Source: a virus. Taken from it: DNA of 32,596 bases. Below, one piece after another: positions 10,334 to 27,834 of this stretch (the stretch's first letter is position 1; each line of letters begins with the position of its first letter). Under the pieces are notes generated by a model. It saw only the letters and a list, made by a program, of their open reading frames with translations, was not told where the DNA came from and did no database searches. The stretch is from IMG/VR virus record IMGVR_UViG_3300025881_001849, positions 1 to 32,596 of that record. One strand, given 5' to 3'. A program made the position numbers and the translations under genes.

Positions 10334-10370
10334 TGTCCTTTTTTTAACATTGGATTATAATTTATATTTG
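10334..10370 (+). promoter_or_regulatory. Late promoter P1
   Basis: TGTCCTTTTTTT at 10334-10345 is followed by a perfect -7 box TATATTTG at 10363-10370, 29 bp from the first base of the motif. Transcription would begin near 10376, giving a leader of about a dozen bases before the ATG at 10388. This is the best -7 match of the seven-member family and the entry into the late region. Confidence 0.75.
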
Positions 10371-10387
10371 AACAAATCAAATAAAGT

Positions 10388-10924
10388 ATGTCCCAAATTA
10401 CTCCCCCTGAAATTGCTAGTTGTTCTGTTACTCAAAACATCCCTGTAGCAAATCACGTTTATAAATATCTCTTGGTAATTTGTGGGAGCGATTATATTAT
10501 AGCCAACAGGTCTACTTATATAGGATCTCTGGTACTTTCTATACAAGGAAGGAATTATGATGTACGCTGTACTAAAAAGAAATTCACTAAAGTATTTCGG
10601 GCAGAAGTTTCTGAAACCTATTACTCCAAAACGGGATTGGTGATAACAAAAGAGAATGCTCAACTATTCAATGATCAGGTAGATAAGAAATTTAGAGAGG
10701 AGCTTTTTCGCAATATGTTGATCAATGATCATTTAAATGAAAAACTTTTTTTACAATCGATGCGCAGATATCTTGACTTTTTCAATATCGATGAAGAAGA
10801 CATTAAAATAGAGACTTTATATCGTGATTTTAAGAGGAAAAAGGATGAGATTTTATCCAATTTCAACACCGTTTCACCCTCCGGGACAAAATGTGAAGTT
10901 TCACAATTTGTCCCTCAAAAATAG
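10388..10924 (+). CDS. Hypothetical late protein, 178 residues
   Basis: The first gene behind late promoter P1. The N-terminal 80 residues are beta-rich (HVYKYLLVICGSDYIIANRS) and the rest is helical and charged, ending with a Ser/Pro-rich tail. No cysteine cluster, signal peptide or membrane span. As the leading gene of the late region it might be structural or a late regulator. I recognise no family. Confidence 0.55.
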   Translation: MSQITPPEIASCSVTQNIPVANHVYKYLLVICGSDYIIANRSTYIGSLVLSIQGRNYDVRCTKKKFTKVFRAEVSETYYSKTGLVITKENAQLFNDQVDKKFREELFRNMLINDHLNEKLFLQSMRRYLDFFNIDEEDIKIETLYRDFKRKKDEILSNFNTVSPSGTKCEVSQFVPQK

Positions 10925-10927
10925 ATT

Positions 10928-11470
10928 ATGATCTACAACCTGTGTAACCTAATAGATGAAACAAATCTTGATTCTTTTTACAAGATTTTAATAGTAGAAG
11001 CTTCCAAGCTTCCAGCCTTTGATCATCTCACTCCAAAGAATGAAGTTTTAGGTATTATAAACTCACTTCCTGAAAGCTTCCAGGCAATGGTAGTTCCCTT
11101 TATGAGAGACAAGCACAGCTTATCTAGCAGCCCTAAAAACAATAATGGTAATACCATCTGGAATCACGGCATTTCGTTTCCGGTGGTACCACAAGATGAA
11201 GCAATTCAGGATCTTCTGGAGAGCTTTCAAAATAGAGAAGTTGTTGCTTTTATGGTAAGGATCACGCACTCCCATTTATATGGAACACAGCTACAGCCAC
11301 TTCTATTTTCTTATGACGAACTCCACTCTCCTAATAAATTAGGCCTTAAAGGTTTCACGATCTCTTTACAAGGGGAAACCTATGGTGCTCCTATGTATTT
11401 TGCAGGAAGTGAAGCAGAATTCCCTGTAATTAATCGCGGTCTTGCCTTCCAGTTAGCAGGCTCATTGTAA
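10928..11470 (+). CDS. Hypothetical late protein, possibly structural
   Basis: A 180-residue soluble protein starting three bases after the preceding stop. The C-terminal half (HSHLYGTQLQPLLFSYDELH, then GLKGFTISLQGETYGAPMYF) is rich in Gly and aromatic residues and predicted beta, like phage structural or enzyme-like folds. No catalytic motif can be named. It ends exactly where late promoter P2 begins, so it closes the first late transcription unit. Confidence 0.55.
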   Translation: MIYNLCNLIDETNLDSFYKILIVEASKLPAFDHLTPKNEVLGIINSLPESFQAMVVPFMRDKHSLSSSPKNNNGNTIWNHGISFPVVPQDEAIQDLLESFQNREVVAFMVRITHSHLYGTQLQPLLFSYDELHSPNKLGLKGFTISLQGETYGAPMYFAGSEAEFPVINRGLAFQLAGSL

Positions 11471-11506
11471 TGTCCTTTTTTCCAGTAGGCTAGCCTTCTA
11501 ATATTG
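11471..11506 (+). promoter_or_regulatory. Late promoter P2
   Basis: TGTCCTTTTTT at 11471-11481 starts on the base after the upstream stop codon. TAATATTG at 11499-11506, 28 bp from the motif start, matches the -7 consensus at all but one position. It serves the capsid operon, whose first codon is GTG 11520. Confidence 0.65.
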
Positions 11507-11519
11507 TTCTTCCATAATA

Positions 11520-12692
11520 GTGAACGAACAATATTTGATTTTGGCAGAACTTAAGCTCCCTTACTTTAATGTAGTTAAAAATTTAGCAGCTCGCGAAGCT
11601 ACCATATATATCTATGGAGTAATTGGCGGGATTGACTGGGATACCTATGAAGAAATTAATACTGCAGCAAAATTTGCAGATGAATTTAAAGAGGTAGAAA
11701 AAGACGCAGATGTTATTCATGTGCGTGTAAACTCTCCAGGCGGTTATGTTTTTGAAGGTCTGGCAATTTATAATGTTCTCTTCGCTTCAGAAAAATACAT
11801 TCATACATATAATGATGGTATCTGTGCATCTATGGCCGCCCTTATTCTTTTGGCCGGAGATGAGATTCACGCTTTCAGCAATTCACTTTTAATGATTCAC
11901 AATTCCTCTTCTGGTTTCTACGGAAACAAAAAAGAAGTAGAGGAACAATTACAAGCTTCAGAAAAAATTGATAAAGCCCTTGGAACCGCTATAGAAGCGC
12001 GCCTGGGAATTACTGCTGAAGAAGTTGCCGAAACTTACTTGAATTACAAAGACAACTGGTTCACTTCAGACGAGGCAAAAGAATCTGGATTCTACGATAC
12101 TATTATCCAGAAGAAAAAAGCACAGGTTCCGAGCGACGCAGTAAACATGTCACCAAAGCAGCTATTCGAAAAATATGCAGCGATGTCTTTCACTATTCCC
12201 ACAAAAAACACAAAACCCAAAAATAAAATGAGCAAACCCAATTCCTTCCCGAATTTGGAAGCTACCCTTGGATTAAAAGCGCCGTTGGCCGTTAATGACA
12301 ATGGAAGCTATCTAAACGAGGACCAGAAAAACACTATTGAGAGATCACTGTCGGCATCTGCCACAGCTCTTAAAAATGCGCAGGATGCTAAGGCAACAGC
12401 TGAAGCAGCTCTGCAAACAGAAAAAGATGCCCACCAAGCGGCATTAACAGATGAATCTGGTAAAGCTACTGCCCTTATTACAGCATTAAAAGCTGCAGCA
12501 ACATTGGCCGGTGTAGAAAACATTGCCGATGACGCAACAGCAGAAGCTGTTCAAACCGCCCTTACAGCACAAATTGAAGTGCTTAACAAAAAACCCGGAG
12601 CAACTCATACTGCTACCGGAGCTGAAGTGGATGAAACCGACACTACACCTTCCTATGTCAATAAGGAGGCTTACGCAAACATGTTTAAATAA
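11520..12692 (+). CDS. ClpP-type prohead protease with C-terminal scaffold region
   Basis: A 390-residue head-maturation protease that processes capsid precursors inside the prohead. Residues about 25-200 form a ClpP/S49-like fold: the oxyanion-loop NSPGG at 71-75, the nucleophile in GICASMAAL (Ser104) and the catalytic histidine in LMIHNSSSG (His127). Residues about 205-240 are a linker, and residues 255-345 are an Ala/Lys/Glu-rich coiled coil typical of scaffolding proteins. The start is GTG at 11520, placed just behind late promoter P2; no ATG fits. An internal ATG at 12228 may give a separate scaffold. The major capsid gene follows 13 bases later. Confidence 0.85.
   Translation: MNEQYLILAELKLPYFNVVKNLAAREATIYIYGVIGGIDWDTYEEINTAAKFADEFKEVEKDADVIHVRVNSPGGYVFEGLAIYNVLFASEKYIHTYNDGICASMAALILLAGDEIHAFSNSLLMIHNSSSGFYGNKKEVEEQLQASEKIDKALGTAIEARLGITAEEVAETYLNYKDNWFTSDEAKESGFYDTIIQKKKAQVPSDAVNMSPKQLFEKYAAMSFTIPTKNTKPKNKMSKPNSFPNLEATLGLKAPLAVNDNGSYLNEDQKNTIERSLSASATALKNAQDAKATAEAALQTEKDAHQAALTDESGKATALITALKAAATLAGVENIADDATAEAVQTALTAQIEVLNKKPGATHTATGAEVDETDTTPSYVNKEAYANMFK
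12228..12692 (+). CDS. Predicted nested scaffold protein from an internal start
   Basis: The in-frame ATG at 12228 (residue 237 of the protease) is preceded by CCCAAAAATAAA, the A-rich leader seen at true starts in this genome. It would yield 154 residues starting MSKPNSFPNLEATLGL and containing the whole coiled coil, without the protease. The same arrangement is known for lambda C and Nu3, where the scaffold is made from the 3' part of the protease gene. Here it is inferred from sequence context only. Confidence 0.45.
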   Translation: MSKPNSFPNLEATLGLKAPLAVNDNGSYLNEDQKNTIERSLSASATALKNAQDAKATAEAALQTEKDAHQAALTDESGKATALITALKAAATLAGVENIADDATAEAVQTALTAQIEVLNKKPGATHTATGAEVDETDTTPSYVNKEAYANMFK

Positions 12693-12705
12693 AAAAACTC
12701 ATTAG

Positions 12706-13707
12706 ATGACTACTGAAGACATTGTAAAAGAATTAGGCGAATACGTTGCCTCCAATGCTAAAATCGTCCCTGCGATGATATATAGCGATGATGTTGTACT
12801 AGATGCACATTGTAAAACCATTACCAAGGTAAAGGGTAAATATCCTTCCTTCCATAGTATTATGACCAACGTTGTTCAAGGTTATAAGAGTGTATGGCAA
12901 TCTCTTGGTGAAGCTCAGTTAAAAAGTAAAAAACTGGAAGCTTTCCGCCAAAAAGTAAACTTTGAATTTAATCCGGATGATATCCAGCATACTTATTTAG
13001 CTGGTGATTATTATGATGAAACCAAAGGAAGAGTTGAAATGCCAATCTCTCAATACGTTTTGGACATTGAATTAAAGCCAAAAGTTACAGACGATATTAA
13101 CTGGCTTTCTATTCTTGCTGAATATGATGAAGCACAGGCAGATGGACAATTTGGAAAATCCCTTAACGGTATTAAAGCTGTTGTAGCTAATGCAGTTGCA
13201 CACGCTACACATCCGGCCTTTAGAATTCCGTTAGACGCTCTTACAGATGCGAACATCTTAGATCAGGAAACTGAATTTGAAGTTTCCCTTCCAGAAAAAG
13301 TAAAACCAAAAGTGAAGGCAATCTTCATGAGTACTAGAAACCTTGAGAGACGTACCAGAGCTTATGTAGATAAATATGGCCAGAATCAGTTTAAAAAGGA
13401 TGAGACTACCACTTTCTTCGGAAGAAGAATTATAGGTCTTCCATTCCTTGATGATGATACCATTTTTGCTACGGTTGATGGAAACCTTGTAAAATTAATC
13501 GATAAGATTGATAACCCACCTTCCATCACAGATATCCAAAAACAAGATTACGTGATCAAGATTTTCATGGAATTTTGGTTAGGATATGAGGTTTTAATTA
13601 ATGAGTTGTTATTCGTTTCTAACTACGAAGATGCAACTTATGGTCTTGGATCTCGTGAAAAGAATCAGTTATACTTCAGCATAGACGGAGTTACTCCAGC
13701 TGTATAA
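12706..13707 (+). CDS. Major capsid protein
   Basis: A 333-residue protein placed directly after the protease/scaffold gene, as in HK97-type heads. Length and layout fit an HK97-fold capsid: a helical N-terminus, an extended YLAGDYYDETKGRVEMPISQYV region, a long helix (NGIKAVVANAVAHA) and a C-terminal beta domain with GRRIIGLPFLDDDTIFA and NELLFVSNYEDA. No conventional long N-terminal scaffold arm is present, which agrees with a separate scaffold. The start ATG follows AAAAAAACTCATTAG. The identity rests on position, size and fold-like pattern. Confidence 0.8.
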   Translation: MTTEDIVKELGEYVASNAKIVPAMIYSDDVVLDAHCKTITKVKGKYPSFHSIMTNVVQGYKSVWQSLGEAQLKSKKLEAFRQKVNFEFNPDDIQHTYLAGDYYDETKGRVEMPISQYVLDIELKPKVTDDINWLSILAEYDEAQADGQFGKSLNGIKAVVANAVAHATHPAFRIPLDALTDANILDQETEFEVSLPEKVKPKVKAIFMSTRNLERRTRAYVDKYGQNQFKKDETTTFFGRRIIGLPFLDDDTIFATVDGNLVKLIDKIDNPPSITDIQKQDYVIKIFMEFWLGYEVLINELLFVSNYEDATYGLGSREKNQLYFSIDGVTPAV

Positions 13708-13717
13708 ACCCATAGAT

Positions 13718-14296
13718 ATGGACAAAAAAGAATTATTAAAAAGATGTAAGGAACTCGGTATACCAACCGAGGGCCTTACTAATAATACCGAGCGCAAAGC
13801 TGCAATTGCAGCTAAGGAAGCCGAATTAGAAGCCCAGGCTTCGAAGGCAAATGCTGAAGAAGTAGATCCTGTAAAATTGAAAGCTGAAGAAGCGGAAGCA
13901 GAAGCTGGAAGAGTTGCGGCTGAAGAAGCTAAATCTGCAGAAGCGGAAGCTGAAAGAGTTGCTGCTGAAGAAGCCAAAGCTGCAGAAGCAGAAGCTGAAA
14001 GAGTTGCTGTTGAAGAAGCCAAAGCTGCAGAAGCGGAAGCTGAAAGAGTTGCTGCTGAAAAAGCCAAAGCTGCAGAAGCGGAAGCTGAAAGAGTTGCTGC
14101 TGAAGAAGCCAAAGCAGCAGAAGCAGAGGCTGAATACACAGATACCCGTGGCAGGAAGTGGGTTTTTAAAGAATCTGCTCCAAAAAAAATTAATATTGAT
14201 GGCCATCCCATGAGCCAGAAAGAGATCCTCGACACAGAGGAAGTAATTTCTGAACTGGTATTCGGGAACTGTGGCTTCTTAACTCAAAAATTATAA
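13718..14296 (+). CDS. Ala/Glu repeat protein with HeH/LEM-like N-terminus
   Basis: A 192-residue protein in three parts. Residues 1-35 (KKELLKRCKELGIPTEGLTN) resemble the HeH/LEM/SAP helix-extension-helix domain seen in phage head proteins. Residues 59-139 are five and a fraction copies of a 15-residue unit AEAEAERVAAEEAKA, which would form a long single helix or coiled coil. Residues 140-192 are a small globular tail (TDTRGRKWVFKESAP, then EVISELVFGNCGFL). It lies 10 bases after the capsid gene and could be a head-decoration or connector component. The repeat also leaves open frames in other phases, which I regard as shadows. Confidence 0.65.
   Translation: MDKKELLKRCKELGIPTEGLTNNTERKAAIAAKEAELEAQASKANAEEVDPVKLKAEEAEAEAGRVAAEEAKSAEAEAERVAAEEAKAAEAEAERVAVEEAKAAEAEAERVAAEKAKAAEAEAERVAAEEAKAAEAEAEYTDTRGRKWVFKESAPKKINIDGHPMSQKEILDTEEVISELVFGNCGFLTQKL
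13892..14134 (+). repeat. 45-bp tandem repeat, about 5.4 copies
   Basis: Five full units of 45 bases plus an 18-base part unit, all in frame, encode AEAEAERVAAEEAKA. The copies differ by a few bases each. The fourth carries AAA for GAA, giving Lys in place of Glu, and the third has Val for Ala. Copy number may change by slippage or unequal recombination. Confidence 0.9.
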
Positions 14297-14300
14297 GACC

Positions 14301-14882
14301 ATGTCAGTAGAATGCGAAGATGTAATTCCAATTGAAAATCTAGATTCTTGTCCTCAAGATGAAGTAGTTGCTGGAATAAGCGAAGTAGGTGTATTTGGAT
14401 CTCCTATAAAGGATTTCTTGAGCATCGCAAAACCTAAAGACCTTAAAACGGCTTTAACCAATGAAGAATTGGCAACCATTGCAGAGGCTCACACTTTTAA
14501 AGAAGGTAAAGGTTTTCATAGAGTAGATTTCATTCCTTTTAGCGGTTCGGTTGATTCCGTTCAAGTTGGGGAAGTTGGAAGTATTTCTATGGAGAACAGT
14601 CTAGGAGCTGCAGTAAAAGGTACCAACGCTAGAGTAGCCGGTTATATGAGACGTTACACCAACGTACCTATGCTGTATATCATCAGAGAAAAGAACGGTG
14701 ATGTGAAGCAAATTGGTAGCGAACTTAGCCCTGCTTATATTGCGGAAGTTGGCGCAACCTCTGGAAAAAAACCAGGAGAAGCAAAACAAACGGTTATCAA
14801 AATTAAAGATACCCAGGCTTACATGGCTCCTAATTATGCTGGAACAATTCAGGAATTTCCTGCTCCAGCACCAGTAGTATAA
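14301..14882 (+). CDS. Probable virion structural protein, perhaps tail tube
   Basis: A 193-residue beta-rich protein with many Gly, Val and Ser residues and no membrane span. Its N-terminus has a CEDVIPIENLDSCPQDEV stretch with two cysteines, and the C-terminus reads GEAKQTVIKIKDTQAYMAPN followed by a Pro/Ala/Val tail. The size and beta pattern are compatible with a major tail tube protein, and the position after head genes agrees. I cannot confirm this from motifs. It may also be a head-tail joining protein. Confidence 0.5.
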   Translation: MSVECEDVIPIENLDSCPQDEVVAGISEVGVFGSPIKDFLSIAKPKDLKTALTNEELATIAEAHTFKEGKGFHRVDFIPFSGSVDSVQVGEVGSISMENSLGAAVKGTNARVAGYMRRYTNVPMLYIIREKNGDVKQIGSELSPAYIAEVGATSGKKPGEAKQTVIKIKDTQAYMAPNYAGTIQEFPAPAPVV

Positions 14883-14888
14883 TAAAAA

Positions 14889-15203
14889 ATGAAAGAAGCA
14901 TTTACAATAGCACCCTGCGTTTATAATATTCCTGGAATTGGAAGGGTAGATTCTACTAAAGAAATTAGTGATGAAATAGCCTTTTCTATTTACAAGCTTA
15001 AACGTGGGGTCTTTCCCTGGATAAAATTAGGCCCTGGAGCTGGATCTTTTTTAAAGAAGCAAAAACTTACCGTGAAGGAAATAGTTTCTCTGGTTGCAAA
15101 CGCCAGAACAGCTGAAGAAATAGAGATCCTGGCCAGCCTAACAGAATCAAAGACCGTAGCCGGAATTGTAGATGTGAGACTTAAAGCTCTTAAAACCCAA
15201 TAA
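14889..15203 (+). CDS. Hypothetical late protein, 104 residues
   Basis: A small protein six bases after the likely tail protein and the last gene before a strong terminator. The N-terminal half is short and basic (YNIPGIGRVDSTKEISDEIA) and the C-terminal half is helical (TAEEIEILASLTESKTVAGI). The size and place would fit a tail-assembly chaperone or a head-tail protein. No slippery frameshift site into a following frame is visible, which speaks against the usual chaperone pair. Confidence 0.5.
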   Translation: MKEAFTIAPCVYNIPGIGRVDSTKEISDEIAFSIYKLKRGVFPWIKLGPGAGSFLKKQKLTVKEIVSLVANARTAEEIEILASLTESKTVAGIVDVRLKALKTQ

Positions 15204-15246
15204 ATATTTCTTTTTCATTTATTTTTAAATTTGATTTTTTAGTTAG

Positions 15247-15277
15247 AAAACCACTCCTCTCCCGGAGTGGTTTTTTT
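15247..15277 (+). terminator. Intrinsic terminator of the capsid operon
   Basis: CCACTCC (15251-15257), loop TCTCCC and GGAGTGG (15264-15270) form a perfect 7-bp stem flanked by AAAA and followed by seven T. It ends the unit that starts at late promoter P2, and the next late promoter motif begins two bases after the T run. Confidence 0.9.
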
Positions 15278-15278
15278 G

Positions 15279-15314
15279 TGTCCTTTATTCTGACTCCTGC
15301 CATTTGCAAATTAG
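15279..15314 (+). promoter_or_regulatory. Late promoter P3
   Basis: TGTCCTTTATT at 15279-15289 (one change from the family word) is followed at +28 by CAAATTAG (15307-15314). The ATG at 15319 lies exactly 40 bp from the first base of the motif, as at P4 and P6, so the transcript should be nearly or fully leaderless. Confidence 0.6.
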
Positions 15315-15318
15315 CAGT

Positions 15319-16080: not shown

Positions 16081-16101
16081 AAGTCTTCCTAAAAAAAATA
16101 T

Positions 16102-16130
16102 AAAACGGCTGCTATATAGTGGCCGTTTTT
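16102..16130. terminator. Bidirectional terminator between convergent genes
   Basis: AAAACGGC (16102-16109) and GCCGTTTT (16122-16129) pair over eight positions around a 12-base loop holding the palindrome CTATATAG. A-rich and T-rich flanks on the two sides allow function in both directions. It separates the forward gene ending at 16080 from the reverse gene ending at 16112, whose last codons lie inside the hairpin. Confidence 0.75.
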
Positions 16131-16420: not shown

Positions 16421-16600
16421 AAATTCTCGTTATTCTCAAAAGTAAAAACTTACTTTTCTGTTAATCAGTTTTTTAAGTATCAAATTGCTTTTATTTTTTC
16501 TCAAATGTCAAGCCGATGTAAGTCGCCTAACCTATATGGAAATGACTTTTGCCATCGCCAAAAATCACGGAAATATGAATCGGCTCCCCCTCCTCGCTGC

Positions 16601-18115
16601 CTACCCAAATGTCGAGATCGGACGGTCCTCTTTTTCAACCTTCCACCCCTTGAACTTTGCCCAGAACATGGAGAAGAAAGGATAATCAAATGTATCACTA
16701 AGGTGGGTGGCATGCTCCTGGTCTACTCCTTTCCGTCTCTCCGATCGTTTGTCTTTCTCTATTCCTTTACCCCTATCCAACGATTCAGCATTCTCCATTG
16801 AGATGATCAGGTTGGGACAGTTTGCCTCGTTAATTCTAATCTTCGGGATCCCTCGGAATCTACCGTCTTCTTTAAATGCCGTGTTGATTAGTTGAAACTT
16901 ATCCATATAAGAAGGGTTAGTTCCGGTGGTCATGGTGAATACCTTCCATCCATTATCTTTCAGGATCGCTCTCGCCTGGTCTGCATAGGTTAACTTACTA
17001 TTGGCGGTGGCATTGTTTCCTGTACGGTCATAATAGAAGTACACCTCTTTGCAGTTGTGGGATTCGTAATAAGGAATAAACTCTTCAAGGAATAAGTGGT
17101 CCAGGATCTTTGGAGTCTTCACATAGAATTCTTTGATCACTCGATAGGTATCATCTTGTAATTGAGATACAGTCATAGAGTTGATACTTGCACCCCAGTC
17201 TACAGAAATGATTAGCCGCTTTCCTTTCTGCAGATCAAGATCCTGTTTACAGTTGAACGATCTACCAGATAGATCTTTAAGCGGTGGAACAGTCTCCAGA
17301 TATCCAAGGTCATAGTCTTTATAATAGTGATCAGCTGTCAATTGTGGATAAAACCCATCGGTGATCTCTTTGGGCCGTATGTTCAACATCTCAGCATTAT
17401 ACACTACATCATCACGATAAGAATCGCGCATATACTCAAAATAATCCGGTCTAAGATTGTGGAGATTCACTTTTGCCGTTGCCTTTAAGAAGTAGATCTT
17501 TTTTGGATCTTTTAAAGCTGCTTTCTCCTTTTCGGTAAACCAACGGCCTTTCTTAGTCAATGGCGTGGAAGAAGTCCAAACCTCGCTATGTAATAGCGGA
17601 GACTTTTTATACACATCTTTTAGGGCTCTGTTGGTGTTCTTTACGTTAATGGCAATCTTCTCTTCATCCAGAAGTGCAGCTTCATCTCCTCGTATGGCAT
17701 AAGAGTTTAGACCCCTCCCGCTATCTTTATGATCAAGACTTACAAATTGGAAAATACAGCCATTTGAGAAATGCCATATATTATTGAAAGCATCCGGAGA
17801 TTGCCAGGGCATTTTAAAGCCCATTCGCTTCCCTGCCATAGAACCAACCACATAATCTACATTCTCATAGACTCCAAATAACTCAAGCCCCTCTTTAATG
17901 GCTGGCATAAACCTAGAAAGGATCTGACTATATGTAGATCCTACCATTGCAAAAGAGGCCCTCGGCATCTGTTTAACCAATTCTAAAGAGTCAAATCCTA
18001 AAAAAGTCGTTTTACCGGTTCCCCTGCCTAGCTCCAAATATTTAACTTTTTGCTTCGCTTTCCAGGCCATGGCCTGAGCTAGATTAAGCTGGACCTTCTT
18101 CTTATTAATTACCAT
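16601..18115 (-). CDS. terL: Terminase large subunit
   Basis: A 504-residue DNA-packaging motor. The ATPase half has the Walker A GRGTGKTT at residues 30-37, Walker B with its acidic pair in AIRGDEAALLD (Asp144, Glu145) and the coupling motif TSSTP at 181-185. The nuclease half has the expected acidic residues in LIISVDWGAS (Asp306), YYDRTGN (Asp363) and HLSDTFDYPF (Asp474, Asp477). It would translocate and cut phage DNA at the portal. Its first codons overlap the small subunit by 11 bases. It is on the reverse strand while capsid and portal genes are forward, an uncommon arrangement. About 180 bases without a gene follow its stop; they contain a 6-bp inverted pair, GCCGAT and ATCGGC (16511-16584), of unknown meaning. 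Confidence 0.93.
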   Translation of the reverse strand: MVINKKKVQLNLAQAMAWKAKQKVKYLELGRGTGKTTFLGFDSLELVKQMPRASFAMVGSTYSQILSRFMPAIKEGLELFGVYENVDYVVGSMAGKRMGFKMPWQSPDAFNNIWHFSNGCIFQFVSLDHKDSGRGLNSYAIRGDEAALLDEEKIAINVKNTNRALKDVYKKSPLLHSEVWTSSTPLTKKGRWFTEKEKAALKDPKKIYFLKATAKVNLHNLRPDYFEYMRDSYRDDVVYNAEMLNIRPKEITDGFYPQLTADHYYKDYDLGYLETVPPLKDLSGRSFNCKQDLDLQKGKRLIISVDWGASINSMTVSQLQDDTYRVIKEFYVKTPKILDHLFLEEFIPYYESHNCKEVYFYYDRTGNNATANSKLTYADQARAILKDNGWKVFTMTTGTNPSYMDKFQLINTAFKEDGRFRGIPKIRINEANCPNLIISMENAESLDRGKGIEKDKRSERRKGVDQEHATHLSDTFDYPFFSMFWAKFKGWKVEKEDRPISTFG

Positions 18116-18668
18116 CTGAATCCTCCTCTTCTATCGTTTCATAGCTTATGTCTTCAGCTTCCATATCATTCAGATCCACCACACCTTTACTATTGCTTTC
18201 TACAATTGCCTTTTCTGCTTTTTTACCAATAGTGATGGTAATATCCATATTGGCAAGTTTTTCTAGGTTCACTAGATTCTCCTCTTTATCCAGTTCAGCA
18301 AGCTTGATCATTCTGTCAAGTGCTTTCCCCATTTCTGCTAGGTTCTTTTCTTTGGTGGCCAGCTGCAGTAATTTTTGGTTGTACTCCAGAATGATGTAGC
18401 GCATCCCTTCTTTACTAGCTTTATTGAGATCTCCATATATCTTGAGGGCATTTCCAATATCTCTATAAGCTGTAGCTTGAGAAATATCAAATTGTTCCTG
18501 GAGAACTTTTGCCGCCTGCTCCCGGCTATGCCAATTGAGCAATAATGAAAATGAGGTCTTAATGCGGTTTTTCATATCCAATTGAAAAGGAGAAAGCTGA
18601 ATTCCTTCATTTAAATAGGAAGCCAGGATCTTTTCAAAATGGGAATCTTGTGTAGTAGTAAGTGCCAA
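18105..18668 (-). CDS. terS: Terminase small subunit
   Basis: A 187-residue protein from the TTG at 18668 (MALTTTQDSHFEKILASYLN). The first 70 residues include a helix-turn-helix-like region, REQAAKVLQEQFDISQATAY, typical of small terminases that recognise the packaging site. The middle is an oligomerising helical region and the C-terminus is acidic (EDISYETIEEEDSDGN), suited to contact with the large subunit. An ATG at 18698 is in frame, but it lies upstream of the transcription start predicted from the reverse late promoter. The TTG is preceded by CCTCAAAAAA, an A-rich leader. Which start is used needs experimental evidence. The identity is strong from the pairing with terL. Confidence 0.8.
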   Translation of the reverse strand: MALTTTQDSHFEKILASYLNEGIQLSPFQLDMKNRIKTSFSLLLNWHSREQAAKVLQEQFDISQATAYRDIGNALKIYGDLNKASKEGMRYIILEYNQKLLQLATKEKNLAEMGKALDRMIKLAELDKEENLVNLEKLANMDITITIGKKAEKAIVESNSKGVVDLNDMEAEDISYETIEEEDSDGN

Positions 18669-18686
18669 TTTTTTGAGGTTTAAGCA

Positions 18687-18722
18687 TAAAATTGGCATTT
18701 CACGCTACCTTAAAAAAGGACA
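18687..18722 (-). promoter_or_regulatory. Reverse late promoter P4r for the terminase genes
   Basis: Read on the reverse strand, TGTCCTTTTTT spans 18722-18712 and CAATTTTA, 28 bp further, spans 18694-18687. This is the only reverse copy of the family. The predicted start of transcription is near 18681, giving a leader of about 13 bases before the TTG at 18668, a distance of 54 bp from motif to start, the same as at P1. Confidence 0.65.
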
Positions 18723-18732
18723 GCAAAATGCC

Positions 18733-18768
18733 TGTCCTTTTTTATCAACTGCTCCTTCTTCAATTTAG
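18733..18768 (+). promoter_or_regulatory. Late promoter P4
   Basis: TGTCCTTTTTT at 18733-18743 and CAATTTAG at 18761-18768 (+28). The ATG at 18773 is 40 bp from the motif start. With the reverse copy it forms the exact 12-bp palindrome of 18712-18723 and 18732-18743 around an eight-base gap, so one regulator complex could fire both units. Confidence 0.7.
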
Positions 18769-18772
18769 CGGT

Positions 18773-19129
18773 ATGGTAGAAGAATCAATTTATATCAATG
18801 AAGTCCTGGAGATCATGCGTACACCAAATAAAGAAGGTCGCGCTGTGAAATTTGATATCTCATACAGGACCTTAAATCGGAATTCAAAAACCGGTGGTAA
18901 ATTAAAATACTTCGAGAATGCCAAACTGGTCATGCAGGAAAAAGCAATGGATCCTCATAGCATTTATGCCCTGCAAAACTTCAAGCCTTCAGAAAAGAAA
19001 AAAGTGATCAAGAAAAAACCAAATCACTACGATCAAAAAACCCGAAATATCAGGCTGGAGAATGGAGAAATTAAAAAAGTGCATTACATGTACATCGAAA
19101 CTTTCAACGGTAAAAAAGTCCTTTATTAA
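18773..19129 (+). CDS. Hypothetical protein upstream of portal, 118 residues
   Basis: A basic, beta-rich small protein (EESIYINEVLEIMRTPNKEG, then a Lys-rich KKKVIKKKPNHYDQKTRN linker). The start is ATG 18773, set by late promoter P4; the in-frame codon at 18692 would read through both promoters. Its stop shares one base with the portal ATG (TAATG), so the two are coupled. The position suggests a head or portal accessory protein. Not recognised. Confidence 0.6.
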   Translation: MVEESIYINEVLEIMRTPNKEGRAVKFDISYRTLNRNSKTGGKLKYFENAKLVMQEKAMDPHSIYALQNFKPSEKKKVIKKKPNHYDQKTRNIRLENGEIKKVHYMYIETFNGKKVLY

Positions 19130-20466: not shown

Positions 20467-20472
20467 AAAATC

Positions 20473-21563: not shown

Positions 21564-21566
21564 TCC

Positions 21567-23660
21567 ATGGCTTTAGCAAAACGACCAAGCAAGAACCTAA
21601 AAAATAAACGAAATATCAATCCCTCCATTAATAGGGACACCGAGGTTGTTGCTGAAGATATTAAGGAGATTGCAGACATACAGGAAGATCATGCTATTCT
21701 TATAGATGAACTTTCCAGAGCCAATGAAGGTTCTAAATTCTATGGTTTTAAAGGTACGCTTGCACTTTTTGAAGCCACCTTTCCAAATGCGGAAGAAGAT
21801 GGATTTGGAGTTATAGATCCTGCTAATGGTAATCCGCAAACCATTGCAAAAGTGATTAATGGAGTATGGACAGAACCTGGACTAACGTCTCCTATTCAAA
21901 GATTTAATTCAAAAGTTAACTTTCCAGATCCGGGATTGGAAGACGTTTGGTACATCGCCAAAGATTCTAAAATAGCCTCTCTTTATTATGATGGAGGTTA
22001 TAAAGACTTTGGAAAAGATGGAAACAACGGTCTCTCAGCCTATCAATTAGCAGTTGCTTTTGGATTTGAAGGAACTGAAGCCGAGTGGTTAGTAAGTATT
22101 CAAGGGAAAGACAATTACCAACTATGGTTGGATGCTGGTAACGTTGGAACTTATCAAGATTTCTTTGAAGCTTCCAGAGGTCCAGAAGGTCCAGAAGGTC
22201 CTCCTGGTCCTCCAGGAGATGGAGCAGATCTTTCCGATTACTACAACAAACCAGAAGTAGATGCAGCAGATTCAGATCTTGCTGTTCAAATTGATGCTGT
22301 TGAAGAAGATATTCTTAATCATGAAAGTAGAATACAAGATTTGGAACAAGCTCCTCCTGGAACAGTATCTTCAATACCAAATATTGAATTTGTCTATTTA
22401 GCTGAATCAAACACTTCACAAGAGAACGCGGATATTATTAATGGAGCAGTTCAAAGAGCAATACCAACAAAAGGGGAAATTATAATTAATCAAACCCCTA
22501 TAACATTAGATTTTTGGCCTTGTAGAACAATCACTTGGGATAATAGGGTTAACGTAAAAGCCGCAGGAACTTGGGGCGCTACTAAATTAGGTTCTACTCA
22601 TGCAGAGCCTTTAATAGTAAGTACAAGAACATCATTAATAGATTCCAGAGGTAATTTAGAGAATATTTGGTTAGATGGGAATGGAATAGGTACTATAGGG
22701 ATTGACTCTAATACAAATATCTATTTTAACTATAATAAAGTAGATATTAGAAATTTCACTCAAATAGGTATAAAAACTGTATCTCATATTTTAGGAACCT
22801 TTACTCAGTTAAAAATAAATAATTGCTCTATTGGATGGCATTCAAGAGAACAAGATGGAATAACCTTTGGGAGTGCATATGCACCACAAACAGGTTATAT
22901 GGCTTCTAATGCCGTTATATTAAGAGACTGCTATTTTACTTCTTGTTCAACTTTTGCTATTGATAAAGATAAAGGATCTGGTATTCATTTAAATAATTGC
23001 AATTTTGAACAAAACGGAACTGCAAACAATAATGCTACAGGAGTAATTAAGTTTACTAATATGTCTCCAGATGGTGGCATCTCTTTAGTAATGAATGGGT
23101 GTTGGCTAGAAACCAACAATGGATCACATTTTCAACTCTCATCTAATACATTATCTAAGGCAGTATTTCAAAATACATTTTCAAGATACAATCCTTCTGG
23201 TTCTTCATATTTTAAAGCTTCAGGAAATCTACTTACTATAAAAGTTTCAAATTGTGAAATCGACACTAACAGATCATTTGGAAGTTTTGACCTTTGTAAA
23301 GTGCTTTTAGATAACACTAAAATTGGACCTATAACTTTATTAAATGGGGCAACTTATTTAGAGAATATTTATTCTAATATAGATGAACCTCTTCTCGTGA
23401 ATACTTCTAGGGCATTAACTATTGAAGATAAAAATAAAATACTCCATGTTACTGCAAATGTTACTTTGACTTATCCTCCGGGCGGATTACCTAAAATGAG
23501 ATTTAACATAAATTGTACGTCAACAGGACAAGCAACAATTACAGGACAAACAGCAGATTTAGATATGACTAATAAAGTGGTTCCTGCAAATAAAGGAGCA
23601 ACATTTTACCTAGACCCTGCAACTGGAAAATTAATTGCTTACGGAGAATTAATAGCGTAA
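21567..23660 (+). CDS. Tail fibre or spike protein with collagen-like segment
   Basis: A 697-residue receptor-binding candidate. Residues 1-60 are a helical anchor, 60-150 a beta domain, and 155-180 contain GLSAYQLAVAFGFEGTEAEW, a motif typical of fibre proteins in this phylum. Residues 205-219 are collagen-like (GPEGPEGPPGPPGDG), 221-262 a coiled coil, and 280-600 a run of Asn/Gly-rich short strands (HLNNCNFEQNG and similar) that suggests a trimeric right-handed beta-helix as in spikes. The last 90 residues form a beta tip. The DNA from about 22,380 on is richer in A and T than the first part, hinting at an exchanged C-terminal module. The stop overlaps the next start by one base. Confidence 0.75.
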   Translation: MALAKRPSKNLKNKRNINPSINRDTEVVAEDIKEIADIQEDHAILIDELSRANEGSKFYGFKGTLALFEATFPNAEEDGFGVIDPANGNPQTIAKVINGVWTEPGLTSPIQRFNSKVNFPDPGLEDVWYIAKDSKIASLYYDGGYKDFGKDGNNGLSAYQLAVAFGFEGTEAEWLVSIQGKDNYQLWLDAGNVGTYQDFFEASRGPEGPEGPPGPPGDGADLSDYYNKPEVDAADSDLAVQIDAVEEDILNHESRIQDLEQAPPGTVSSIPNIEFVYLAESNTSQENADIINGAVQRAIPTKGEIIINQTPITLDFWPCRTITWDNRVNVKAAGTWGATKLGSTHAEPLIVSTRTSLIDSRGNLENIWLDGNGIGTIGIDSNTNIYFNYNKVDIRNFTQIGIKTVSHILGTFTQLKINNCSIGWHSREQDGITFGSAYAPQTGYMASNAVILRDCYFTSCSTFAIDKDKGSGIHLNNCNFEQNGTANNNATGVIKFTNMSPDGGISLVMNGCWLETNNGSHFQLSSNTLSKAVFQNTFSRYNPSGSSYFKASGNLLTIKVSNCEIDTNRSFGSFDLCKVLLDNTKIGPITLLNGATYLENIYSNIDEPLLVNTSRALTIEDKNKILHVTANVTLTYPPGGLPKMRFNINCTSTGQATITGQTADLDMTNKVVPANKGATFYLDPATGKLIAYGELIA

Positions 23661-24541
23661 TGAGTTACAGGAGCAACATATTTTCAAAAGGAAATACGCA
23701 AGGAGTTGTGTACACTCCTATATTGGATGATTACACAGCATTAGTTGGGTATTCTACTATGAAACTTAAAAGTTCTATTACAAGCCCAATGACTTTAAAG
23801 AATAATAGCGGGGTAGTTTCTGATTTACTTTATGGAAGCAGTAAGAGTTACGATTTAACCTCATATCTATCTAATGGGCAAACATTCAACGAATTTAAAG
23901 AAAGTAACAATATTAAATTAACTGTATTAAAAGACCAAAGCGGAAACGGAAAAGATATAAGTGCAGTTTCAGCTTTTGAACCTTTAATATCAAATGCAAC
24001 AGATATTTATAAAACAGATGGGCAGCCATCAATTTATTTTGACTCTAAAAGATTAGAAAGAGCAGCGTTACCAGAATTAGCCATCGGAAATAATTTTACT
24101 GTTTATAGTGTGTCTGCGGTGAAATCTGGCTCTGCTATAGGGGTTATTTTAAACACATCCTCTACGGATACAAACAGGTTGGTTCAATTTGCTGATTTAA
24201 GAACAATAAAAAGAAATGCGTTTTTGCAAACCGCTTCTGGTTCTTATGCTTCAGACATGAGCCAAGCAAGAACGACACCTGATAAAAATGTTTTAAAAGT
24301 TTTTTCTATTGGTGGGTCTGGAACTTCTGTTTCATCATGGGATAATAAATCTAATGGTCAGCAAAATGTAGCTATTGTTGGTACTTACACAAACGATATT
24401 TTGAAGATAGGATCGCAACATTTGAACCTATTACCATTAACAGGATATGTACAGTTATTAATAATTAGATCAGGTGTTGATTCAGATATAGTTAGAAATG
24501 ATATTTCAGATAGAATAAATCAAATGTTTAATATATACTAG
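23660..24541 (+). CDS. LamG/concanavalin-like lectin-fold tail protein
   Basis: A 293-residue beta-rich protein. The DQSGNGKDISAVSAFEPLIS segment, GQPSIYFDSKRLERA and the final SDIVRNDISDRINQMFNIY follow the usual course of a laminin-G-like domain, from the DxSGNG motif to the closing helix. Such domains bind sugars. With the fibre gene next to it the protein is probably an accessory receptor-binding or host-range factor at the tail tip. No signal peptide. Base composition is AT-rich like the end of the fibre gene. Confidence 0.6.
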   Translation: MSYRSNIFSKGNTQGVVYTPILDDYTALVGYSTMKLKSSITSPMTLKNNSGVVSDLLYGSSKSYDLTSYLSNGQTFNEFKESNNIKLTVLKDQSGNGKDISAVSAFEPLISNATDIYKTDGQPSIYFDSKRLERAALPELAIGNNFTVYSVSAVKSGSAIGVILNTSSTDTNRLVQFADLRTIKRNAFLQTASGSYASDMSQARTTPDKNVLKVFSIGGSGTSVSSWDNKSNGQQNVAIVGTYTNDILKIGSQHLNLLPLTGYVQLLIIRSGVDSDIVRNDISDRINQMFNIY

Positions 24542-24543
24542 AA

Positions 24544-24618
24544 ATGAAAACACTACTCCTAATTCTATTCTTATCTACGGCTGCTTTTAGTCAGGTTACT
24601 TTAGATATCCAACCATAA
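24544..24618 (+). CDS. 24-residue signal-peptide-like fragment
   Basis: ATG at 24544, two bases after the preceding stop, opens a frame of 24 codons, MKTLLLILFLSTAAFSQVTL plus four residues, then TAA. The first 17 residues are a complete secretion signal with a Ser/Ala cleavage region. Nothing remains of a mature protein, and the late promoter P5 starts six bases after the stop. It is probably the remnant of a secreted-protein gene lost by recombination, or a very short peptide. Confidence 0.4.
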   Translation: MKTLLLILFLSTAAFSQVTLDIQP

Positions 24619-24624
24619 TTTCCC

Positions 24625-24660
24625 TGTCCTTTTTTAAAATATATTGACTTCGGACTTTTA
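24625..24660 (+). promoter_or_regulatory. Late promoter P5 (lysis cassette)
   Basis: TGTCCTTTTTT at 24625-24635 is followed at +28 by GACTTTTA (24653-24660). The 19 bases AATTTCCCTGTCCTTTTTT (24617-24635) are identical to those at P6. The ATG at 24684 is 59 bp from the motif start, so this unit would have a leader of about 18 bases. Confidence 0.65.
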
Positions 24661-24683
24661 TAATCTTTAAATAAATAAGTATT

Positions 24684-25232
24684 ATGAAAGTCCGAAACTT
24701 TTTAAAACGCCTTGGAACATGGCTTGGAGAATTCTTCAATAATATAGGAAACCTAATAGGTGCATTTTTACTTATTATTCTTGCAGCATTTGTTTTTCTA
24801 GTGTGTGTAATCCCATCCATGCTCTGGAAGATCATCTTCAGCTTTAAAAAAGAAGATCGCAAAGCAAGAGATATCATTTCTGGTACAGCGAAGTTTTTTG
24901 TTGGAATTGCCATAGGCATAGATCAAATAGGAAATGTTGCTTTTGGTGGCTTTTTTAATTGGTTCTTCCTCACCAACTCAAAAGAATATCCTTTTGGAAA
25001 TACTCATGAAACTATAAGTGAAGTCTTGGGTTGGAATGATGCTCTAGGCAACTTAAATAGAAAAGGCCATCTCTTGGTTTCCTTTCTAAATGTAATAGAA
25101 TCTGCCCACTGTCAAAATGCAATGCAATCTGGCATCTATGCAGCAAGATATAAAACAGAATTTTATGCACGCCTGCAGTCTAGGCTTCAAACTATAGAGA
25201 AAACCAAAACATTTCTGGAAAAATACTCATGA
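24684..25232 (+). CDS. Membrane protein at the head of the lysis cassette
   Basis: A 182-residue protein with a strong membrane span at about residues 24-48 (LIGAFLLIILAAFVFLVCVI) and a second weaker hydrophobic segment at about 70-95. The later part follows a pattern seen in phage lysis-region proteins, with DQIGN, then NTHETISEVLGW, then a C-terminal ESAHCQNAM. I know that pattern only as unnamed phage proteins. A holin or a membrane anchor for the lysis genes is possible. Its last bases overlap the secreted protease gene (ATGA), so the two are coupled. Confidence 0.55.
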   Translation: MKVRNFLKRLGTWLGEFFNNIGNLIGAFLLIILAAFVFLVCVIPSMLWKIIFSFKKEDRKARDIISGTAKFFVGIAIGIDQIGNVAFGGFFNWFFLTNSKEYPFGNTHETISEVLGWNDALGNLNRKGHLLVSFLNVIESAHCQNAMQSGIYAARYKTEFYARLQSRLQTIEKTKTFLEKYS

Positions 25233-25714
25233 GATTTTTCTTATACATAGCGCTCTTTTGCATGATGCCGGTTGCCGGACAAAATATGTACACCAATGCT
25301 CCAGATAAAGTCTATCCAATCTTGGAAGAATTTATTGCAGAAAATTTTAAGAACGATACTCCATCATTCTATCGCATAAATGAGATTGATAGTATTGTGG
25401 TTAGAAACATCCAACCGGTTATTGATGGCCCTTGGATTATGAGAGTTTTAGGCTATCATATAAGAAGAGGAAAGGTGCACACTATAGAAATAGATTCTTC
25501 ACTTTTAGATCACCCTCAAGTATTCGAGCTCACGCTGAAACATGAGTTAGGCCACGCTTATAATTTAAAACATATCTGTGTAGATGAACTTCCCAAATCA
25601 GATCCTGCCTTTAATGAGATCATGAGCCCAACCCGCTTAATGTATTATGTAGATCCCAAAGAACTCCAAAGAGTCAACACCAATTTTTATAAATCTTTAA
25701 TTCCCAAAAAATGA
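25229..25714 (+). CDS. Secreted zinc metallopeptidase-like protein
   Basis: A 161-residue protein with an N-terminal signal peptide (MRFFLYIALFCMMPVAG, cleavage near residue 17) and a zinc-protease signature HELGHAYNLKH at residues 105-115, the HExxHxxxxxH layout of metzincins, with Asn where Gly is usual. The following EIMSP (Met132) sits where a Met-turn is expected. It would act in the periplasm, perhaps cleaving peptidoglycan peptides or envelope proteins in lysis. The place in the lysis cassette supports that; the substrate is unknown. Its end overlaps the lipoprotein gene by four bases. Confidence 0.65.
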   Translation: MRFFLYIALFCMMPVAGQNMYTNAPDKVYPILEEFIAENFKNDTPSFYRINEIDSIVVRNIQPVIDGPWIMRVLGYHIRRGKVHTIEIDSSLLDHPQVFELTLKHELGHAYNLKHICVDELPKSDPAFNEIMSPTRLMYYVDPKELQRVNTNFYKSLIPKK

Positions 25715-26070
25715 AAAAAATATTATTGATCATTCTTATAAGCTTTAGCCTTTCCGGTTGTGGCATTGCTCAAGAGCTACCTCCTACAGATGTTCGAGAT
25801 CTAGATCTTACAGTAATGTATGTAGAAAATGGCACCGCCGGACTTTACAATCCACTTTACGGTAAAACTTTTAAAGGTGCAGCAGGCACACTCACTCAAG
25901 AAAATGTGGAGAAACAATACCACTTTATAATCACAGTAATAGATTGTGATAATTGCAAAGTGATCAATGTAACCATAGATGATTACAGCATTACCCCTGA
26001 TCAAGCCGACAAAGATATTAAACGAATGCTCAGAGATAATCAAAGCATTCAAAATAGAAAATCAGATTAA
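25711..26070 (+). CDS. Small lipoprotein of the lysis cassette
   Basis: A 119-residue protein with a lipoprotein signal: a hydrophobic stretch (ILLIILISFSLSG) and the lipobox LSGC with the acceptor Cys17. The mature part is polar, with a second CxxC pair in IDCDNCKV and a basic C-terminal end. It would be tethered to the inner or outer membrane. In context it may partner the secreted protease or act as an outer-membrane component of the lysis apparatus. No known family. Confidence 0.6.
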   Translation: MKKILLIILISFSLSGCGIAQELPPTDVRDLDLTVMYVENGTAGLYNPLYGKTFKGAAGTLTQENVEKQYHFIITVIDCDNCKVINVTIDDYSITPDQADKDIKRMLRDNQSIQNRKSD

Positions 26071-26071
26071 T

Positions 26072-26437
26072 ATGTTATTACCCTTACAATTAGAGGTTGC
26101 CGGTACCAAACTATTAGATTATGGTGTTCTGGGAATAGTACTTTTTTTTGTAGGCTATTTTGCTTACAAGCTCTACATGCAGCAACAAGGCTATACCCAG
26201 GAATGGAAACTTGAAGCCAAAGAATCTCATAAAGCCTTTGTAGAATTATCTGCAAAGCAAAATTCCATTTCAGAAAAACAAATTGAGATTCAAGAGAAAC
26301 AAACCCTGCAGACTAAAGATTTTTATGATAGTATCATCAAAAGAGTAGATGAACTGCCGTCTCTAACTTTACGTGAAATTGAATACAACAGGCTACAAGA
26401 CAAACAAAATAATCCTAATGTAACTCCAGCACCATGA
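26072..26437 (+). CDS. Holin-like membrane protein with coiled coil
   Basis: A 121-residue protein with one membrane span at about residues 17-36 (YGVLGIVLFFVGYFAYKLYM) and then a long amphipathic coiled coil through residue about 95. This topology is that of BhlA/UviB-type holin-associated proteins. It directly precedes the endolysin, overlapping it by four bases, which strongly favours a lysis role. The start is set at ATG 26072, two bases after the stop of the lipoprotein gene; an in-frame ATG at 25979 would run through that gene. Confidence 0.55.
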   Translation: MLLPLQLEVAGTKLLDYGVLGIVLFFVGYFAYKLYMQQQGYTQEWKLEAKESHKAFVELSAKQNSISEKQIEIQEKQTLQTKDFYDSIIKRVDELPSLTLREIEYNRLQDKQNNPNVTPAP

Positions 26438-26934
26438 CATCATTCGACAAAGCATTTGAAACATTAATAGGAATTGAAGGTGGTTATGTTAACGACCCAA
26501 CAGACCGTGGTGGAGAAACCAAGTACGGAATTTCTAAAAAAGCTTATCCGCATTTAGACATCAAAAATCTAACGCTGGATATGGCCAAGAAGATCTATTT
26601 TGAAGATTACTGGAAAGCCTGTGGTGCAGACCAAATGTTGAAGTATGAAGTAGCGCTAGAGCTTTTCGATACCGCTGTTAACATGGGCCAAGTCACCGCA
26701 AAAATGTTTCTTCAGGAAGCACTCAATTTAATGAATAGAGATGGCAGAAGTTATCCAGATCTAAAAGTTGATGGCAAGATAGGTCCTGCAACATTAAGCG
26801 CTTATAGAGCCTGTGGGAATGATCGTATTCTTTTAAAAGTACTTAACGGTTTACAATTTTGTAATTACAAAGTGATCTGCGAGAAAAAACCATCGCAAGA
26901 AAAATATTTTAATGGTTGGATGGAACGAGTTTAA
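26434..26934 (+). CDS. Endolysin, GH108 family muramidase
   Basis: A 166-residue lysozyme-like enzyme that cuts the glycan strands of peptidoglycan. The N-terminal IEGGYVNDPTDRGGETKYGI (about residues 14-33) carries the catalytic Glu15 in the EGGY motif of glycoside hydrolase family 108. The C-terminal half has the VDGKIGPATLSAYR region of the usual peptidoglycan-binding segment and ends KYFNGWMERV. There is no signal peptide, so a holin must release it. Neighbours are a holin-like gene upstream (four-base overlap) and a spanin candidate downstream. Confidence 0.9.
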   Translation: MTSFDKAFETLIGIEGGYVNDPTDRGGETKYGISKKAYPHLDIKNLTLDMAKKIYFEDYWKACGADQMLKYEVALELFDTAVNMGQVTAKMFLQEALNLMNRDGRSYPDLKVDGKIGPATLSAYRACGNDRILLKVLNGLQFCNYKVICEKKPSQEKYFNGWMERV

Positions 26935-26944
26935 ATAATTATAT

Positions 26945-27427
26945 ATGAAAACAAAACTACTATTTGCAGTATTGGCGCTAATGTTTTTTAGTGCCTGCAG
27001 TTCCAGAAAAGCTGAGACTCAAAAGAAAGTAGAAAAACTCTCAGAGATCACACAAAACGAGATCAAGACTTCAGATTCAGAAGTATTTGAAAGTACCAGC
27101 ATTTCTAATATTCAGGAAAAGAATATTAAAGCAACGCCTCAAGATCCGGAAAAACCTTCTTCTTTGAATGTGACTGGTAACACCGTTACCTGGCAAAATG
27201 CTGCCCTGGACATTACAAATAAAAAAGAAAATTCTACCAATACCACCAATGGTTCCAAAGCTTCCTCCAAAGAAGATAATAGCAAAAGCAACAAAGATTC
27301 CACCGTAAAAGAAAAAGGGAAAAAAGTGGAAAGAGAATCTATCTCCTGGGGAGCAAACCTTGGGATCATCTTCGGGATAATTGCCGGATTAATATTGCTG
27401 TTTTTATATTTTAAAACGAGAAAATGA
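26945..27427 (+). CDS. Candidate unimolecular spanin (lipoprotein with C-terminal membrane span)
   Basis: A 160-residue protein with a lipoprotein signal at the N-terminus (LLFAVLALMFFSAC, Cys18) and a single membrane span at the C-terminus (about residues 137-156, GANLGIIFGIIAGLILLFLY) followed by a short basic tail. The 115 residues between are polar and rich in Ser, Lys and Asn. This layout, outer-membrane lipid anchor plus inner-membrane span, is that of u-spanins such as T1 gp11, which join the two membranes and fuse them after the wall is degraded. It follows the endolysin by 10 bases, the right place for such a gene. Confidence 0.7.
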   Translation: MKTKLLFAVLALMFFSACSSRKAETQKKVEKLSEITQNEIKTSDSEVFESTSISNIQEKNIKATPQDPEKPSSLNVTGNTVTWQNAALDITNKKENSTNTTNGSKASSKEDNSKSNKDSTVKEKGKKVERESISWGANLGIIFGIIAGLILLFLYFKTRK

Positions 27428-27756
27428 TTCCATATATATTAGCTCATTTTATAGGAGACTTCTTACTTCAGAATGATTGGATGGCAAGAAGAAAAAAGAA
27501 TAGCAGCCTAATTTGCACCATTCACGTGGCTATATATATAATACCCTTCCTTTTTGTTGAAGCTTCCTATCTCCAAACACTCTTAATATTCTCTCAACAC
27601 TGGATTCAAGACAGAACAGAATTTGTTAATTGGTACTGCAGAAAACTTAAAATCTTCCAAGGAGAATTAAACCAGCAAGTGTTACCATGGGGACATTTCA
27701 TTATTGATCAAATTTTCCATTTCATTTGGCTTTGGATTGTGTTCAGATTCTTCTAA
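27424..27756 (+). CDS. DUF3307 family membrane protein
   Basis: A 110-residue hydrophobic protein. The N-terminus AHFIGDFLLQNDWMARRKKN is the hallmark of the DUF3307 family. Hydrophobic spans lie at about residues 30-48 and 90-108. The family is widespread in bacteria and phages and has no settled function. It overlaps the spanin candidate by four bases and is the last gene of the unit begun at P5. A role in holin function or in regulating lysis is possible but unproven. Confidence 0.7.
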   Translation: MIPYILAHFIGDFLLQNDWMARRKKNSSLICTIHVAIYIIPFLFVEASYLQTLLIFSQHWIQDRTEFVNWYCRKLKIFQGELNQQVLPWGHFIIDQIFHFIWLWIVFRFF

Positions 27757-27759
27757 AAA

Positions 27760-27783
27760 CTGTTAACTGATATCTGTTAACTG
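27760..27783 (+). repeat. Two direct copies of CTGTTAACTG
   Basis: CTGTTAACTG occurs at 27760-27769 and 27774-27783, 14 bp apart, each centred on the palindrome GTTAAC. They lie 16-39 bp upstream of the late promoter motif P6. They could be a binding site for a regulator of that promoter or simply a short duplication. Confidence 0.5.
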
Positions 27784-27798
27784 CTCACTGAATTTCCC

Positions 27799-27834
27799 TG
27801 TCCTTTTTTCTCATGCCTTCAAAGATCAAATTTG
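27799..27834 (+). promoter_or_regulatory. Late promoter P6 (tail genes)
   Basis: TGTCCTTTTTT at 27799-27809, with the 19-base identity to P5 (AATTTCCCTGTCCTTTTTT), and CAAATTTG at 27827-27834 (+28), five of the six fixed positions of the -7 consensus. The ATG at 27839 is 40 bp from the motif start, so the transcript is predicted to be leaderless. Confidence 0.7.

Follow-up and report, generated by a model that had tools for sequence, protein, structure and literature searches.

A TGTC-type box paired with a degenerate -7-like element marks a putative late-promoter class in temperate siphophages of Bacteroidota

Late operons in a group of temperate siphophages of Bacteroidota are preceded by a two-part signal, in which a box and a degenerate TAnnTTTG element stand at fixed spacing, and which, from its distribution, very probably represents a class of late promoters with some phage-encoded recogniser. 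The signal is described here from a stretch of viral DNA of 32,596 nucleotides (IMG/VR record IMGVR_UViG_3300025881_001849, hereafter the window) and from its relatives. In both, a TGTC-box is followed 27-29 bp downstream by a -7-like element, and several copies stand before late operons. We propose that, as the early phase ends, the phage makes a DNA-binding activator of its own, which attaches to the box and recruits or redirects the host RNA polymerase (the sigma-ABfr holoenzyme) to -7 elements that would be too weak alone, so that the operons for virion, packaging and lysis are turned on together. As this activator we favour the protein of gene 10388-10924, and we consider the account as a whole, in which this protein is the recogniser, moderately likely.

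The box of the window is the 11-letter word TGTCCTTTTTT. Six exact copies are present (10334, 11471, 18733, 24625 and 27799 on the forward strand and 18722 on the reverse), against 0.13 expected from first-order Markov copies of the window, which contained one at most. A seventh copy, TGTCCTTTATT at 15279 on the forward strand, carries one mismatch. Words built from a permuted TGTCC followed by six T residues give 0.1 matches in the window. When one mismatch is allowed the window has 11 matches against 3.3 expected, and the four additional decoys lack a second box at offset 28. A degenerate TAnnTTTG box does follow all seven family members, at offset 28 in six and 29 at 10334. The coordinates, strands and spacing given in the original prediction stand as claimed.

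The first putative promoter (10334-10370, forward) joins a box at 10334-10344 to the -7 element TATATTTG at 10363-10370, with a predicted transcription start at 10375, and would drive the candidate regulator gene 10388. The second (11471-11506, forward; box 11471-11481, TAATATTG at 11499-11506, predicted start 11511) precedes the head protease and capsid operon, while in the third (15279-15314, forward; box 15279-15289, CAAATTAG at 15307-15314) the predicted start, 15319, is the A of an ATG. The fourth (18687-18722, reverse; box 18712-18722, CAATTTTA at 18687-18694, predicted start 18682) faces the terminase operon, and the fifth (18733-18768, forward; box 18733-18743, CAATTTAG at 18761-18768) the portal operon, its predicted start at 18773 again being the A of an ATG. 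The sixth (24625-24660, forward; box 24625-24635, GACTTTTA at 24653-24660, predicted start 24665) lies before a lysis and accessory operon, and the seventh (27799-27834, forward; box 27799-27809, CAAATTTG at 27827-27834) before the tail operon, with a predicted start at 27839, likewise the A of an ATG. Judged by gene content (head protease, terminase, portal, lysis and tail), the genes downstream would be late genes, in keeping with the claim that every copy precedes a late gene or operon; the exception is the copy at 10334, which precedes a gene at the boundary, the proposed regulator, and not a virion gene. Apart from the window, a site like this first one was found only in the closest relatives (G001, G009, G010 and G012). 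A Mu-like phage was considered and dropped, since the window encodes a terminase, a portal protein and a head protease but gave no match to a transposase. The window also encodes an early homologue of the NA37-type nucleoid-associated proteins (6227-7270; PF04245, E 1e-31) and, beside the capsid genes, a protein (13718-14296) with several imperfect Ala/Glu-rich repeats (EAKAAEAEAERVAAE).

Transcription starts were inferred from the spacing in Flavobacterium johnsoniae, where the -7 element extends between a nearly invariant T-12 and G-5, with transcription beginning 4-5 nt beyond (PMC6847099). On that scale, offset 28 is predicted to correspond to -12, the box to approximately -40 to -30, and offset 40 to +1. 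The consensus of the second element over 104 non-redundant sites is [C/T/G]A[A/T/C][T/A/C]TT[T/A]G, although some of these sites are in records picked by a pattern in which part of the positions are already fixed, and the unbiased values are the counts of 25/45, 25/39 and 17/45 presented below. The A and the TT core are conserved, whereas the first base is C in 47 sites, T in 31, G in 22 and A in 4. With T at the first base in only 31 of 104, the -7 elements look weak alone. Offset 40 holds an A in 79 of the 104 sites, and an ATG in 35. The -33 TTTG is absent: its positions are occupied by the T run of the box, with no G, or, in Flavobacterium phage laban6-1, by part of CACAAC. The -33 element is weak in F. 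johnsoniae too (PMC6847099).

Relatives were picked from IMG/VR by terminase and head-protease searches in which the motif was not consulted. These homology-chosen records, together with Polaribacter phage Leef_1, contain 2-9 copies of TGTCCTTTTTT each (5-9 in those longer than 20 kb) versus 0-0.2 in Markov copies, and the same word read backwards occurs 0-1 times per record. At offset 28, [CTG]A..TT.[GC] is found in 25 of 45 non-redundant sites, as compared with a mean of 0.24 at other offsets, and ATG is found at offset 40 in 17 of the 45, as compared with 0.72. The remaining records were chosen with the motif pattern, and only those of their sites that fail to match this pattern were used in the test; the offset-28 element is present in 25 of 39 such sites. 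Checked in this way, the box is conserved upstream of homologous late genes in related phages, and its spacing to the second element is fixed, with a sharp peak at offset 28. A search of the whole viral collection returned 97 stretches for the true pattern, compared with 24 for the reversed box and 41 for the true box at a 4-bp longer spacing, meaning that part of the 97 is chance, although several records carry two or three exact matches. In one relative (G003, position 7814; L120), a single TGTCCTTTTTT lies within a short TGTCC​C/GGGACA repeat array and has no -7-like element; not every occurrence of the word is therefore a promoter.

The same data bear on whether the repeats could be a non-promoter signal, be it for packaging, recombination or something linked to terminators, or a product of chance. 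Several copies do lie directly after terminator-like T runs. The copies are, however, oriented toward the next gene and placed before operons, at a fixed offset to a -7-like element and with the peak of ATG at offset 40, and such an explanation strikes us as the least credible of those weighed here.

Whether the host itself uses the signal was addressed in genomes with prophages, which were located by a terminase alignment search of genome contigs (a search of genome contigs with the portal protein gave no match). Prophages with a terminase homologue came from Galbibacter, Aquimarina, Mesonia, Zunongwangia, Aequorivita, Flavobacterium, Paenimyroides and Flammeovirga, among others. In 16 of these host genomes, approximately 69 Mb, the two-part pattern has 37 matches, of which 23 are inside prophages as judged by position relative to the terminase homologues. 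The 14 outside compare with 13 for a reversed control, so the host uses this promoter no more than background would predict. The plain word TGTCCTTTTTT in whole host genomes is within a few-fold of its control. Background frequency in host genomes outside prophages, conservation in relatives and fixed spacing together give good support to the original view of a late-promoter family with the box in place of the -33 element.

The exact word, taken originally as the family motif, proved to be the variant of a single lineage within a wider class. In phages that lack TGTCCTTTTTT late promoters, another word takes the same position. For instance, TGTCCTTTTAA occurs in 6 copies in Cellulophaga phage Ingeline, TGTCCTTTAT in 3 copies in a gut phage, and TGTCCTTTT in 4 copies in Bacteroides phage BT-TP2 and 4 in a phage recorded from Microcystis, while TGTCCTTTC is the box of a Flavobacteriales MAG. 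Flavobacterium phage laban6-1 (NC_048834; L184) has 5 copies of TGTCACAA(C) and 0 of the reversed word, its box being TGTCACAAC, and three Flavobacterium prophages have TGTCCTATTTT-like boxes in 4-6 copies each. The case of Flavobacterium phage 6H (NC_021867; L179) is weaker, as its 4 copies of TGTCTTAAA compare with 5 occurrences of the reversed 8-mer; nevertheless, a -7-like element follows every copy at offset 27-28, and late genes lie downstream of at least three. MT836146 was not counted as a member of the class: it has 70 TGTCC words versus 15 reversed, but only four have a -7-like element near the expected offset. In the phage recorded from Microcystis, Mea-Yong924-1 (MZ447863; L182), the late box has a longer TTAACACGC/TTTACACGC prefix and the -7 elements are of the TTTG type. 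This phage, although recorded from a cyanobacterium, has homologues of the late genes of the window, and its host assignment is questionable unless the system extends across phyla.

Box copies within one phage vary in concert, and three different boxes are found among phages of a single host genus, Flavobacterium. This lineage-wise co-variation implies that the recogniser is encoded by the phage and is hard to reconcile with a host factor. A host regulator or host alternative sigma factor would explain why the -7-like half resembles host promoters, but not the background level of the two-part motif outside prophages nor the different boxes among phages that share a host genus, and we regard it as very improbable. 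A host factor and chance were both rejected on the host-genome background, the Markov and offset statistics and the Flavobacterium box variants. The suggestion that an activator or an alternative sigma factor reads the box is thus narrowed to a phage-encoded recogniser, since the box varies by phage lineage and not by host.

Which phage protein would read the box was approached by a family census, in which ORFs of Leef_1 and BT-TP2 served as search seeds against 23 phages. The family of gene 10388-10924 (forward strand; 178 aa, at the early/late boundary) is the only non-virion, non-packaging family present in all 23. Integrases are found in 20. Its members include Leef_1 29520-29993 and BT-TP2 gp8, the equivalents of the window gene, and the family occurs as well in prophages of bacterial genomes, including Flammeovirga (L201) and a Dysgonamonadaceae MAG (L203). 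A late box lies within approximately 1.1 kb downstream of the family gene in 29 of 40 records, mostly after one intervening gene, although some of the 40 are near-duplicates and gene order is conserved among these phages, so that position is not independent evidence in each genome. In Ingeline, the gene is downstream of an apparently late operon. No late box is found within 100 bp upstream of the gene in 34 of the 40 records, and five of the six records that do have one belong to the clade of the window, where autoregulation is plausible.

On universality and position, we propose the 10388-10924 product as the late activator. The family is mostly basic (median pI 9.1), and its structure is predicted with good confidence, at a pLDDT of 83.4 for the window protein and 90.8 for a homologue. 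Pfam, PHROGs, NCBIfam, PDB profile and Foldseek searches returned nothing convincing as to its identity: there is no detectable similarity to a known DNA-binding family, and Foldseek with the predicted structures finds no PDB match to the fold. Weak matches to ribbon-helix-helix proteins among archaeal viruses, at a probability of 0.2-0.7, provide a lead only, and the label 'transcriptional regulator' on the BT-TP2 gp8 record has no stated basis. The same box, TGTCCTTTTTT, accompanies very different members, at 12-13% identity to the window protein, which shows that box and protein diverge without simple tracking.

A different phage protein could be the recogniser of the same promoter class. 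The GerE/LuxR-type protein of gene 1165-1779 (forward strand) is early, its family occurs in 19 of the 23 phages, and the HTH match is genuine (PF00196, in 13 of 14 members). Even so, we think it unlikely that this protein, and not the 10388 product, reads the box. The family was not found in four motif-bearing phages (G031, G061, G022 and BT-TP2), some of whose records may be incomplete, and it adjoins lysogeny genes, as suits an earlier role. The sites that dimers of GerE usually bind are symmetric; the box, by contrast, is asymmetric, and where it stands singly no inverted partner is seen upstream. Two members of the GerE family match Sigma70_r4_2, a related HTH domain. To about the same low degree we would credit a phage-encoded sigma factor or sigma-like subunit that reads the box as its -35 and CAnnTTnG as its own -10. 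A sigma factor would also be compatible with the fixed 17-bp spacing and with a box in place of the -33 element, and the second box departs from the host consensus at its first base. It retains, however, the A..TTTG core of the host sigma-ABfr -7 element. Moreover, no sigma domain is found in the 10388 family, in which one of 33 members has a non-significant match (0.013) to a sigma-like model, and the other families common to all 23 phages are virion or packaging genes.

For the preferred reading, an activator that binds the box, the back-to-back promoters give a hint of geometry. In a search that allowed any gap from 0 to 40, all 16 distinct pairs between divergent terminase and portal operons have their boxes 9 bp (9 cases) or 10 bp (7 cases) apart. 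In the window the 10-bp spacer is at 18723-18732; its length is conserved among the phages but its sequence is not, which suggests that two bound proteins touch, or limit each other sterically. Single promoters show no clear signal of an inverted partner or second half-site at any gap, implying that one box is enough. In prophage L190, the two boxes are further apart than 9-10 bp.

The predicted starts have a consequence for translation. A leader of 0 nt is predicted in 28 of 37 sites before the portal-preceding gene (within one base of this in 32 of the 37). The same holds for 19 of 24 sites upstream of the 15319 family and for 9 of 17 upstream of the 27839 family. Predicted leaders are typically 10-31 nt for the head protease (17 sites) and 19-21 nt for the 24684 family (5 of 5 homologous sites). 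N-termini are conserved at the leaderless ATGs. For two late operons in most of the phages, the predicted +1 thus coincides with the A of the start codon, and the mRNA would be leaderless; the same is predicted, given the borrowed start distance, for 15319, 18773 and 27839 in the window. In F. johnsoniae, 87% of predicted transcripts have leaders longer than 10 nt (PMC6847099). As a side observation, the longest ORFs at 15304 and 18692 open with TTG codons upstream of the predicted transcription start, and the conserved starts are ATG 15319 and ATG 18773. The terminase-small-subunit-like gene (18105-18698, reverse) probably begins at TTG 18668 and not at the longest-ORF ATG 18698; TTG 18668 is downstream of the predicted transcription start, and several relatives keep TTGGC there.

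Among known systems, the middle promoters of T4, which depend on sigma appropriation by MotA and AsiA, are reminiscent of this class in having, instead of the -35 element, a short asymmetric box specific to the phage in front of a host-type -10, and in being read by a small phage protein, as proposed here. The MotA box of T4 is centred at approximately -30 (PMC6755090), as compared with approximately -35 here. The box, host phylum and polymerase differ, the T4 promoters drive middle and not late genes, and their -10 is strong whereas the -7 here is degenerate and weak. No MotA homologue appeared among the PDB profile or Foldseek matches of the 10388 candidate, and with its weak -7 and no MotA relative the class is not a member of the MotA system. 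Mor and C of Mu, and Ogr and Delta of P2, are small phage activators that appear ahead of the late genes and act at a site, near -35 or upstream of that, which several late operons have in common. The activator proposed here would be alike in this respect, but their sites are longer or symmetric, and no relation of the 10388 family to these proteins was found in sequence or fold (no Pfam match).

Sigma-ABfr housekeeping promoters (TTTG / TAnnTTTG; PMC6847099) share the A..TTTG core of the -7 element and, by assumption, the 4-5 nt to the start, but the promoters described here have a phage-specific box and mostly C or G at -12; they lack the near-invariant T-12 of TAHHTTTG and have no TTTG at -33. 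Polaribacter phage Leef_1 (Helgolandviridae) has the same box (5 copies), the same late gene set and a 10388 homologue (39.5% identity), but its terminase gene is forward, which leaves it without a divergent pair. Neither promoter nor transcription occurs as a word in the main text of its description (PMC8776804). No published description of such late promoters was found in the open-access literature, most subscription journals being outside the scope of the search, and within that scope the original statement that no such motif is known in Bacteroidota phages agrees with ours. The wider box class, the candidate activator family, the predicted leaderless mRNAs and the 9-10 bp box pairs are additions to the original observation.

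Late gene control is among the best known parts of E. coli phage biology. In Bacteroidota, where the polymerase follows another promoter code, no description of it was found for temperate phages in the literature searched. We give even chances to a late-transcription system that spans the phylum, in which a universal small activator, its predicted fold unmatched in PDB, would read a fast-diverging TGTC-box and steer sigma-ABfr to weak -7 elements, with key late mRNAs starting at the start codon. If this is true, the late operons of a large group of phages, and their start points, would be readable from sequence alone, and the switch to particle production would be open to a single-gene test. 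The promoter and its activator would form a pair of use as a tool in Bacteroides and Flavobacterium, and from the natural series of co-changed boxes one could learn by what rules a new type of DNA-binding protein recognises its sites. Leaderless late mRNAs, if formed as predicted, would in turn bear on how phage translation is initiated in hosts without Shine-Dalgarno sites.
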